Shown piece by piece: positions 2,806-30,619 of a stretch of 32,541 bases of DNA. Numbering within the stretch: position 1 is the first letter of the stretch; the number at the start of each line of letters is the position of its first letter. The DNA comes from a virus: the IMG/VR virus record IMGVR_UViG_3300031672_000641, positions 1 to 32,541 of that record, one strand, 5' to 3'. A program made the position numbers and the translations under genes. Below the pieces are notes generated by a model. It was not told where the DNA came from. It saw only the letters and a program-made list of their open reading frames with translations, and did no database searches.

Positions 2806-3028
2806 GCGCTATTTCAACGCCGTCGCGGGAGTTTGCTTCAGGGGCTGAAGCCCCCCTCCTGCTGCGGCTTATTGTCGGAGCTGAAGCTCCGACCCCCGAA
2901 ACGCTGAAGCATGATGTGCCGGGCTAAAGCCCGACGCCACATCAACGCTGAAGCTTCGACCACCGAAGCCGGGATGCTCGCGCCACATCGCCCGGTCCTG
3001 GCGGCGCCGCGCCGACGCGCTACGCCGA

Positions 3029-3061
3029 GATTCCTCCCGCCTTCACCGAGGTTTCGGCGGG
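3029..3061 (+). repeat. Family E repeat (CTTCACCGAGGTTTCGG core), copy 1
   Basis: An intergenic copy of a 33-bp element beginning GATTCCTCCCGCC and ending TTTCGGCGGG. Two further copies lie inside genes: 9728-9760 on the plus strand and 28539-28570 on the minus strand. The element is a hairpin: the CCCGCC arm pairs with the GGCGGG arm. Confidence 0.8.
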
Positions 3062-3246
3062 CAAGCCCTGCCTCGGAGCGCCGGGGCGGTCGCAATGACA
3101 GCGCCTCAACGCCGGGCCGGGAACCTCGCAATGGCCACATTCAACGAAATTTGAGATTGGAAATTTGAGACCGGATAAACCAGGGCTCGAATTTCCGGTT
3201 CCACAGGTTTTCTTCCGGCGAATCGCCGACGAGGGGTCCGTGGCCT

Positions 3247-3298: not shown

Positions 3299-3348
3299 CT
3301 AAAAAGCGGCAGGTGAAACGCCGAGTGGAGGCGGTCTTCTAATTCCGA

Positions 3349-3404
3349 TGTAGCGCCGCCCTTCAGGGCGGCACGATGTGCCGGGCTCAAACCCGGCGCT
3401 ACAT
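3349..3404. repeat. Paired TGTAGCGCC hairpins (family B)
   Basis: A GCCGCCC-stem element (3349-3373) is followed by an inverted CCGGG-stem element (3377-3404), with TGTAGCGC-type ends facing outward. The second element ends 31 bp before the scaffold-like start codon. An in-frame ATG inside it (3376) is unlikely to be the true start, because a ribosome-binding site precedes the ATG at 3436. Confidence 0.85.
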
Positions 3405-4897: not shown

Positions 4898-5019
4898 CCG
4901 CCGCGCAGCCGCTACGAAGACTGCTCGCGTAAGTGCCGCCCTGAAGGGCGGCGCTACACGGCCCGCACTGATGCGGGCAAGGGCCGCCACCAAGCGGCGA
5001 GCCAAGGAGAAAAGACGAA
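4672..5019. repeat. Intergenic repeat cluster upstream of the capsid gene
   Basis: About 350 bp without a gene. It holds hairpins with cores GGCACGGCTTTAGTCGTGCC, AGCGGCTAAAGCCGCT, GGCACGACTGAAGTCGTGCC and GCCGGCCGCAAGGCC, the second copy of the 56-bp duplication, and a GCCGCCC-stem element at 4934-4958. Only the last 15-20 bp look like a normal leader: AAGGAG at 5004-5009 serves the capsid start at 5020. Confidence 0.85.
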
Positions 5020-7742: not shown

Positions 7743-7826
7743 TGTAGCGCCGGGCTTTAGCCCGGCATGGCGCGCCGGCCCGGTATCGCATGCCGGCGCC
7801 GTGCCGCTCTGAAGGGCGGCGCTACA
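7743..7826. repeat. Paired TGTAGCGCC hairpins (family B), outward facing
   Basis: A CCGGG-stem element at 7743-7768 and an inverted GCCGCCC-stem element at 7802-7826, with TGTAGCGCC ends outward and about 33 bp between them. They end 38 bp before the next start codon. Confidence 0.88.
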
Positions 7827-7864
7827 TTCCGAATTATGAATTTTCCCCACAAGGAGGACACACC

Positions 7865-19440: not shown

Positions 19441-19465
19441 TGCCGCCCTGAAGGGCGGCGCTACA
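19441..19465 (-). repeat. Single family B element (GCCGCCC stem)
   Basis: TGCCGCCCTGAAGGGCGGCG followed by CTACA. An unpaired copy 43 bp before the next start codon. Confidence 0.85.
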
Positions 19466-24438: not shown

Positions 24439-24518
24439 TGCCGCCCTGAAGGTCGGCGCTACATCAAGCCGCCCAACGCGCAAACGCGTAAATGTAGCGC
24501 CGGGCTTTAGCCCGGCAT
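24439..24518. repeat. Paired family B hairpins, inward facing
   Basis: A GCCGCCC-stem element (24439-24464, reverse) and a CCGGG-stem element (24493-24518, forward), with TGTAGCGCC ends facing each other. As in the other pairs, one of each stem type is present. Confidence 0.88.
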
Positions 24519-28120: not shown

Positions 28121-28174
28121 TTTTTCCGCTCCTTTCCGTCCCCCATTCACTCCCGCCACGCCACCCGCACCCCA

Positions 28175-28199
28175 TGTAGCGCCGCCCTTTAGGGCGGCA
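28175..28199 (+). repeat. Single family B element supplying a stop codon
   Basis: TGTAGCGCCGCCCTTTAGGG followed by CGGCA. Read on the minus strand, its CCC-TAA is the stop of the initiator gene, whose last residues WLPP come from repeat DNA and its immediate flank. Confidence 0.88.
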
Positions 28200-29169
28200 A
28201 CCATTGCCGCTCGCCCCGCCGCAACAACGCGCACTTCTGCCGCTCGAGCAGTTCCCGGCGCTTAACCACCCCCTCGCTCGGCAACGCTTTCGCGCCCATC
28301 ATTCGCCGCAGCCCCGCCAGAAGCTCGCCGTCTCGCCCGCCCAGATCGGCGCCCTCCCTCGAACTGTTCCCGTCATCCGCCAAAGCGCTCTCGTCCCCTG
28401 CCCCTCCCGCACGCGAAACGGCGCTTTCCTCGCGATGTTCACCGCCGCTCCCCGCGCCGTCGCCATCCCCGCGACTCCTTGCGCAAGCCGTAACGTTGTC
28501 ATTCCACCGAACCCCGTCCTGGCCGGGGAAACGCGCGCCGGCCGAAGCCTCGGCGAAGGCGGGAGGAATCTGCTTTTGGTTTTGGTTTTGGTTTTCAACA
28601 GCAGGTGGGGAGGGAGGGCTTGTCTTTGGCGGATTGGCGCGTTCCGGTAAATCTTCTAGAAAACCATAATTACTTTTCCCATAGCTTTCTGTAAAAGGCT
28701 TTCTATCTTCCTTATAGGAGCGGCCACTTCTGGCAGGGTTGGCCCTGCCGAATCTGGCAGGATTGACGCTGCCAATCTTGGCAGGGTTGGCTGTGGAAAC
28801 TGTGGAAATTGTGGAAATCCGGGAAGTCCCAGATGGCTGGCTGGGATGGAATTTCTTCGATTTGAAGACTTCGATCGCGAGGCCATGCCGCCCGCGCACG
28901 ACGACGTGGCGCGTCCGGATGTAGGGGCCCCGCAGCAGGTTCATCCAGCGGTAGATCGTGCGCAAGCCGACGCCCAGGTCGGCGGCAATCTCCTCGCAGC
29001 GAACCGGGCTGCCGCCCAGGACGCGCCCCACGCCCTCTTGCTCGGACGTCACGCGCCACAAAATCCAGTCGTAGAGCCACCGGGCGCTGCCTATCGCCTT
29101 GACGTGCTTGGGATCGAGCAGACCGGCGCGCGCCCCGATCGGCAGTTCCCTGCCCCGCGTTAAACTCAT
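28189..29169 (-). CDS. Putative replication initiator with embedded origin
   Basis: A 326-aa protein. Its ATG overlaps the stop of the zinc-ribbon gene (ATGA). Residues about 25-105 form a winged-HTH-like domain (RWLYDWILWRVTSEQEG, RCEEIAADLGVGLRTIYRWM, then a beta wing VVVRGRHGLAIEVFKSKKF) as in phage replisome organisers. Residues 118-126 are three IST/VST triplets and 127-150 three 8-residue repeats (ANPAKIGS, VNPARFGR, ANPARSGR). These are encoded by iteron-like DNA, followed by an AT-rich stretch encoding SYKEDRKPFTESYGK. Residues about 201-216 (IPPAFAEASAGARFPG) are translated family E repeat, and the stop is in another repeat. The C-terminal third is low-complexity Gly/Arg/Glu. No helicase gene is seen; the protein may recruit host DnaB. 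Confidence 0.65.
   Translation of the reverse strand: MSLTRGRELPIGARAGLLDPKHVKAIGSARWLYDWILWRVTSEQEGVGRVLGGSPVRCEEIAADLGVGLRTIYRWMNLLRGPYIRTRHVVVRGRHGLAIEVFKSKKFHPSQPSGTSRISTISTVSTANPAKIGSVNPARFGRANPARSGRSYKEDRKPFTESYGKSNYGFLEDLPERANPPKTSPPSPPAVENQNQNQKQIPPAFAEASAGARFPGQDGVRWNDNVTACARSRGDGDGAGSGGEHREESAVSRAGGAGDESALADDGNSSREGADLGGRDGELLAGLRRMMGAKALPSEGVVKRRELLERQKCALLRRGERQWLPP
28539..28570 (-). repeat. Family E repeat inside the initiator gene, copy 3
   Basis: On the minus strand it reads GATTCCTCCCGCCTTCGCCG and so on, giving IPPAFAEASAG. The frame equals that of copy 2 at 9728-9760. Confidence 0.83.
28648..28818. other. Candidate replication origin: iterons plus AT-rich tract
   Basis: Inside the initiator gene. 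Three 24-bp direct repeats sharing TGGCAGGGTTGGC-type starts lie at 28731-28754, 28755-28778 and 28779-28802 (the third diverges in its last third). They overlap three tandem 9-mers, TGTGGAAAC, TGTGGAAAT and TGTGGAAAT (28792-28818). On the minus strand the last two read ATTTCCACA, 7 of 9 to the DnaA box TTATCCACA. Beside them, 28648-28718 has 22 G/C in 71 bp (31%), far below the surroundings, as expected of an unwinding element. A (TTTTGG)n tract lies near 28574-28595. Confidence 0.6.
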
Positions 29170-29462
29170 CGCCGCGCCTCCCGCCTCGTACGCTCCGCCG
29201 CGCCGTGGGTGCTCGTATGTTTATGTCGGTTGCCGAAGGCCCCACCCAGTCCTTCATTCCGAGCCCCGGCCTCATCGGGGCGAGGAATCTCTCCGGTTGA
29301 TTTCCCCGGGATGGAAGACGCCGGGACAAGCGCCCCCTCGAGCGCCCGGAGATGCCCGCACGAATCGCATTCCAGCCACGACGCGCCCCATTCCCGTAAT
29401 CGCACGATTTGCCCGCCGCACCACCGGCACTTCTCTCCGGTCCGCCGCGGCAGGGCTGTCAT
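29166..29462 (-). CDS. Zinc-ribbon protein of the early operon (98 aa)
   Basis: The ATG at 29462 overlaps the stop of a 40-codon upstream ORF (ATGA), and its own stop overlaps the initiator ATG in the same way. Residues 11-33 form a four-Cys ribbon (CRWCGGQ, then CDSCGH). The C-terminal part is hydrophilic and basic (RNEGLGGAFGNRHKHTSTHG). It may bind DNA or partner with the initiator. A longer reading from a TTG at 29594 is possible but would mask the 40-codon ORF. Function is inferred only from the ribbon and its coupling. Confidence 0.62.
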   Translation of the reverse strand: MTALPRRTGEKCRWCGGQIVRLREWGASWLECDSCGHLRALEGALVPASSIPGKSTGEIPRPDEAGARNEGLGGAFGNRHKHTSTHGAAERTRREARR

Positions 29463-29581
29463 TTCCCCGGCCTCCGCTTTTTTACGCCCACCACTTCGAT
29501 GGAATTCCTGCCCGAACGGACAAGGAAACTGCGAGGCTTCCGGACCCGCCGGCGCCCCGTCGGCCGCCCATCCGAGCTCAC
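29459..29581 (-). CDS. Possible small basic protein (40 aa)
   Basis: A GTG at 29581 overlaps the stop of another short frame (GTGA), and its own TGA overlaps the ATG of the zinc-ribbon gene (ATGA). The product is strongly basic (GRPTGRRRVRKPRSFLVRSG) and ends EVVGVKKRRPGK. The sequence looks protein-like rather than random, and the overlaps on both sides favour a real gene. There is no independent ribosome-binding site. Confidence 0.4.
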   Translation of the reverse strand: MSSDGRPTGRRRVRKPRSFLVRSGRNSIEVVGVKKRRPGK

Positions 29582-29675
29582 GGTAAAGCAACAATCCAAT
29601 CGATCATCGCGGCCAAGAGCCTTGCCCACGGGCCCTCCCTGCTGGCCATGCCCATTTCAAATTCGCGAAAGCAGT

Positions 29676-30450: not shown

Positions 30451-30619
30451 GGGGCGCCCGCCTCGGGCCGGCCCGCGAGATTGCCAGCCGCTCCCCGCAC
30501 GGCGCGGGAAGCGGCTGGGGCCTGGATGTTGCGGAGGGAGGTAATTATGTTCACGTCGTTAACCATATGTACATTAGTAAATCTTGTCAAGTCCTATTTC
30601 CCACTGTTACGGTGCTGCC
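30451..30619. promoter_or_regulatory. Divergent control region between excisionase-like and RHH genes
   Basis: 169 bp without a gene, AT-rich in its middle. ATGTACAT at 30567-30574 is a perfect 8-bp palindrome inside a looser inverted region (TTAACC...TAGTAA, 30559-30580), a plausible operator. TTGTCA at 30584-30589 could be a plus-strand -35, but the matching -10 near 30606-30612 is poor. No ribosome-binding site precedes the plus-strand ATG at 30620, so that transcript may be leaderless or start further upstream. Confidence 0.45.

Follow-up and report, generated by a model that had tools for sequence, protein, structure and literature searches.

Replication origins that lie inside the genes of their own initiators are known from the O gene of phage lambda (PMC7466680), from gene 38 of phage SPP1 (PMC6316719) and from RepA_N plasmids (PMC5703833); given these precedents, an earlier note on the DNA studied here overstated the case in calling the union of iterons and DnaA-like boxes within one coding block unusual. 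The window that we analyzed is the whole 32,541-base stretch of an IMG/VR virus record, linear, without host genome and possibly incomplete, so that a second origin could be missing from it. Our comparisons point with high probability to the gene at 28189-29169 on the minus strand as the replication initiator and to an internal block at 28649-28784 as the replication origin of this phage. Palindromes, DNA-level selection, helical phasing in relatives, protein–DNA covariation and an AT-rich tract are the observations in support. The lambda-type origin within an initiator gene, as the note had proposed it, is thus upheld on comparative grounds, i.e., by the layout found in relatives, by DNA-level selection across reading frames, by phasing and by covariation.

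The putative initiator comprises 326 amino acids, and the ATG start of its gene overlaps the stop codon of the upstream gene (29166-29594). Its N-terminus matches the profile of phrog_7498, annotated as "DnaD-like helicase loader", with an E-value of 8e-14 over residues 15-110 only; a whole-length match was not obtained, and the protein beyond these residues matches nothing. It is therefore assigned to phrog_7498, a family that has received little study, by its domain only, and one relative (L227) likewise matches in the N-terminal part alone. A winged-helix DNA-binding domain at residues 15-108 (28846-29127, minus strand) emerges from the profile match, the AlphaFold model and fold comparison, with pLDDT values mostly between 80 and 95 over residues 21-100. 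Profile match and model bear out the description of the gene as winged-HTH and initiator-like. The recognition helix is predicted at residues 69-79 (28933-28965, minus strand) from the model and from covariation with the iteron arm, and it includes R70 (codon 28960-28962) and R74 (codon 28948-28950), both on the minus strand. Scans of the initiator against Pfam and NCBIfam gave weak generic HTH matches or none, and a sequence search of solved structures yielded generic winged helices only. With Foldseek, strong matches in the PDB were lacking, and those to viral models, which include replisome organizers and one O protein, were all weak.

The C-terminal half of the protein (28189-28648, minus strand) is of low complexity, has no family match and partly consists of dispersed repeats. 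No helicase-loading domain was recognized in this half, which is degenerate. A repeat around GCCGCCCTTTAGGGCGGC occurs in six copies in the contig, at 28171-28200, 3345-3373, 4934-4961, 7802-7827, 19441-19465 and 24439-24464; the first of these forms the 3' end of the initiator gene, stop codon included. In the C-terminal coding half, another repeat (28494-28571) is 78% identical to 3028-3103. The initiator gene also holds 3.7 copies of TTTTGG at 28574-28595, which encode NQNQNQ and resemble a simple-sequence repeat; none like it was seen in the relatives' tracts inspected.

Between the parts that encode the winged helix and the C-terminal half lies a 24-bp tandem repeat in three copies, 28720-28743, 28744-28767 and 28768-28791, with 71-83% identity to the first. 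TRF reports it at 28729-28791 with a score of 87, the highest in the window, and no dinucleotide shuffle reproduced the repeat pair. The repeat had been described before at 28731-28802; it is present, in a shifted register, owing to which the third copy as first drawn covers only half a repeat. A palindrome is a better unit than this register, namely CTGCCA-N4-TGGCAG at three sites centred 24 bp apart. Iteron 1, CTGCCAATCTTGGCAG (28769-28784), is a perfect palindrome with a 4-bp centre. Iteron 2, CTGCCGAATCTGGCAG (28745-28760), and iteron 3, CGGCCACTTCTGGCAG (28721-28736), each carry one mismatch to CTGCCANNNNTGGCAG, the inner GCCA-N4-TGGC arms of iteron 3 being perfect when read on the minus strand. 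These are the only three iterons in the window, two of them imperfect. With the protein kept fixed and codons redrawn from the usage in other genes of the phage, 24-bp-periodic palindromicity at or above the observed value arose in 0.04% of 5000 synonymous recodings (P=0.0004); the DNA itself is therefore patterned, beyond what the protein dictates.

In the direction of the gene, three 9-mers come first, then the iterons and then an AT-rich tract. The tract, a candidate DNA unwinding element at 28649-28719, has 31% GC, in line with its first description, and no other 71 nt of the contig are as poor in GC. The second lowest GC stretch (30539-30609, 34%) lies between an HTH_17 gene and a ribbon-helix-helix-like gene and is possibly an early control region. 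The tandem 9-mers ATTTCCACA/GTTTCCACA, together written TTTCCACA, are found at 28792-28818 on the minus strand just as reported and are putative, possibly weak DnaA boxes. Cumulative GC skew, in which a switch had been suggested as a check, declines evenly, with no sharp turn at this locus, and reaches its minimum near 31 kb; it is uninformative in a partial linear contig.

Among annotated genes, the nearest relatives of the initiator are the one for gp42 in Geobacillus phage phiOH2 and comparable ones in Bacillus and Cytobacillus elements. Over about 110 residues, XkdB of PBSX and phiOH2 gp42 are 38-43% identical to the winged helix of the window. Genes in the relatives' neighborhood encode helicase loaders, DnaB, single-strand binding protein and recombination functions, and in Geobacillus and Cytobacillus elements the initiator relative directly precedes DnaC-like or other helicase-loader/DnaB genes. 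Our scan of cellular genome contigs reached nearly only Bacillota. In viral contigs, neither the full protein nor the N-terminus alone retrieved close relatives, and when only the DNA was searched, for three GCCA-N4-YGGC sites, four further members of the initiator family came up. This initiator is absent from the 27 terminase relatives of the window, one weak HTH match aside, which implies that replication modules are exchanged. L270 and L271 carry family initiators in phages with no helicase loader recognized beside the gene, and in L270 some 0.9 kb separate the initiator from the start of the terminase gene that follows; the two suggest that other initiator-only phages exist. In a search that covered few subscription journals, we found no literature on in-gene origins in the phrog_7498 family.

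About 60 relatives share a common layout in which the winged helix is followed by palindromes with a 4-bp centre and then by an AT-rich tract. The set comprises 63 non-redundant genes, window included. In roughly 200 nt past the domain, these genes hold 133 dyads (arm length 5 bp, centre 4 bp) versus 19 ± 4 under synonymous codon shuffling (maximum 30 in 200 shuffles), and their winged-helix-coding parts hold 9. In 40 genes one arm is present twice or more, and in 29 of these the copies stand in more than one reading frame. In L018, for example, one DNA word is read as DKNVHS, QKCPVS and WTEMSS. The distances between iterons (n=117) are most often 22, 32-33 and 42 bp, i.e., two, three and four helical turns, with a resultant of 0.76 at a period of 10.5 and a flat distribution modulo 3 (43/40/34). 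Past the last iteron of the relatives, GC content lies 19 and then 12 points below the gene mean in the first two 30-nt bins. The phiOH2 gp42 gene itself holds GTGCCA-N4-TGGCAC iterons and an AT-rich tract. Judged by these comparisons, the iteron DNA of the family is under selection at the DNA level across reading frames.

Protein and DNA moreover vary together. Among 101 domain columns, residues 70 and 74 show the strongest association with the arm; these columns were picked after viewing all of them, and kinship of the genes lowers the effective number. In 54 genes with at least three iteron copies, the first arm base is G in 47 of 47 with R or K at residue 70 and in none of the other 7, and bases 3-4 are CA in all 42 genes with R at residue 74 and in 0 of 12 otherwise. 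The two residues explain 100% of the arm entropy, compared to 82% and 67% for the best other column. On a tree built without the recognition-helix columns, and with the arm of L124 left out for its ambiguous register, each residue–arm pair shows six changes on either side, all six of which coincide for both pairs. That every change coincides can hardly be accounted for in another way, and we hence infer direct recognition. The window, with R70, R74 and a GCCA arm, fits the rule, as do the 12 other GCCA genes (13 in all). The iteron palindromes are very probably the binding sites of the initiator itself.

Relatives that keep the protein and lack the repeats, which the earlier note had named as evidence against an origin, do exist, partly with the array moved and partly with the array lost. 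L124 and L127 retain the domain and have no in-gene iterons; a palindrome array lies immediately upstream of the gene instead. It consists of GATAAAGCG-AAAA-CGCTTTATC palindromes, six in L124 and four in L127, some of them imperfect, plus an AT-rich stretch. At L124:3695-3896 the array is interleaved with three perfect DnaA boxes TTATCCACA, and at L127:3777-3893 it comes with one. PBSX-type xkdB genes (L010, L024, L037, L040, L109 and 33 similar ones) have the winged helix and the AT-rich tract with at most one iteron, so that two or more copies are found in 0 of 38 distinct PBSX-group genes versus 61 of 86 others. PBSX has been called a defective phage (PMC9836290), and the loss of its sites would fit sites that are needed only for replication, as in a decayed origin. 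A few of the 86 non-PBSX genes, L124 and L127 included, contain no relaxed copy (4 genes) or one (8 genes), and some of these may use other repeats. One such case is L264:4336-4470, and also L266, where the gene contains another repeat (24 bp in L264), GATGCACACGAACATGTGCAACCA and variants spaced 21-24 bp apart, ahead of an AT-rich tract in which AGACAATACAA recurs; neither the arms nor the recognition helix conform to the common types in these two.

From this we can outline how the block might work. The N-terminal winged helix would bind each of the three palindromic iterons, probably as a dimer; within the GCCA arm, the outer G would be read by R70 and the inner CA by R74. With about two helical turns from one iteron to the next, the bound proteins could form one array, which would then melt the adjoining AT-rich tract. 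There, the host replicative helicase would be loaded and theta replication would begin. The iteron repeats would at the same time encode a flexible linker of the initiator. Binding in vitro, dimerization, melting and the start of replication at the block are the steps that we infer in this model.

Other readings of the block have to be weighed against this. Repetitive DNA may arise as a by-product of a repetitive protein linker, by slippage of coding repeats and with no function of the DNA, and the iteron copies of the window do share one frame, recur at a period divisible by 3 and give rise to similar 8-mers in the protein. The synonymous-codon tests for the window (P=0.0004) and the family (133 versus 19) oppose this view, as does the way in which relatives hold one DNA word in several frames, with spacings that follow the helix and not the codons. 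The arms, in addition, covary with the recognition helix, and we therefore find a mere linker by-product hardly credible. The palindromes might also bind the protein for autoregulation or silencing, as operator sites beside a promoter in the AT-rich tract, with no origin involved. Winged helices are common in regulators, and the tract includes a promoter-like match (9/12) at 28695-28666 on the minus strand, one compared to 0.3 expected. However, the sites lie 400 nt within the gene and away from its promoter, an AT-rich tract directly past the last iteron is conserved, the relatives' neighbors are the replication and recombination genes named above, and the precedents of lambda, SPP1 and RepA_N are origins. 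Regulation in place of replication hence appears improbable, albeit less so than a linker by-product.

A further reading extends the origin model and does not exclude it. The TTTCCACA 9-mers would serve as DnaA boxes, and host DnaA, in place of a phage loader, would deliver the helicase. DnaA recruitment is conceivable because no helicase loader gene was recognized among the scanned genes of the window, a contig that may be incomplete. In its favor, three tandem 9-mers, each one mismatch from TTWTNCACA, stand directly beside the iterons, and perfect TTATCCACA boxes accompany the iterons of L124 and L127, three in the former and one in the latter. Against it, all three 9-mers deviate from the DnaA consensus at position 1, and single-mismatch boxes occur at chance level in the window (16 versus 12.2 ± 3.4 expected). 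DnaA-like boxes are not enriched in the tracts of relatives either (1.19 versus 1.50 per kb). In viral contigs, we found no second case of the 9-mers and iterons in such a gene; a search for two 9-mers plus the iteron pattern returned two matches, both located elsewhere. The DnaA-box reading of the 9-mers is thus weak, as a single mismatch is commonplace in this window and the 9-mers are not conserved. A loader-less composite origin within a coding sequence, with opening of the DNA at the iterons and recruitment of host DnaA by a tandem array of degenerate boxes in one reading frame with them, accordingly seems doubtful to us, if the least remote of these additional readings. Were it true, the phage would need neither a helicase loader nor a helicase of its own.

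The preferred reading, an initiator that acts on an origin within its own gene, would have consequences beyond this phage. Proteins of the family, now annotated as "DnaD-like helicase loader", "transcriptional regulator" or hypothetical, would become origin-binding initiators with a locatable origin. By the two-residue rule, binding sites would be predicted from protein sequence in phages far removed from one another, and the origins of many uncultured phages and prophages could thus become predictable. Since in-gene sites, upstream sites and site loss occur in one family, the coevolution of initiator and origin may be traceable.

Compared with the described systems, the locus resembles lambda O and ori-lambda (PMC7466680, PMC6022878; NC_001416) in its arrangement, with an N-terminal DNA-binding part, iterons in mid-gene and an AT-rich tract on the 3' side. 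Read in the same way, lambda O has iterons in frames 0, 2, 2 and 1, followed by 32% GC. The lambda O protein shows no profile match to the domain of the window (hhalign probability 0.2); the two are linked indirectly, by PHROG families matched by lambda O and by relatives, and we keep the window protein out of the lambda O family because a direct match fails. Lambda also has a separate loader, P, whereas none was recognized in the window. SPP1 gp38 and oriL (PMC6316719), likened here by description, are an origin-binding protein and its origin, with direct repeats and an AT-rich unwinding element in gene 38 itself; SPP1 differs by its loader gp39 and its helicase gp40. Within the family, phiOH2 gp42 matches phrog_7498 over its whole length, including the C-terminal part, and is followed by a DnaC-like gene, and PBSX XkdB shares the winged-helix family with the window, in genes that keep at most one site. 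RepA_N, a plasmid and not a phage system, offers a close parallel in pSK41 Rep (PMC5703833), in which an N-terminal winged helix is combined with Rep boxes in the middle of rep and the stretch encoded by the origin forms a linker. Rep has a further C-terminal domain, as fuller phrog_7498 members do, in contrast to the C-terminal half of the window protein with no recognizable domain. Our model aligns with the RepA_N structures 4pql, 4pt7 and 5kbj at Z 7.7-8.6 over 90-96 residues, a fold match that is not specific, since CRP-type winged helices reach the same level (Z 8-8.9 across some 70 residues), and a Pfam scan found no RepA_N domain in the window protein. The probable in-gene origin is of a known design, as in lambda, and the two-residue recognition rule is the new and testable part.
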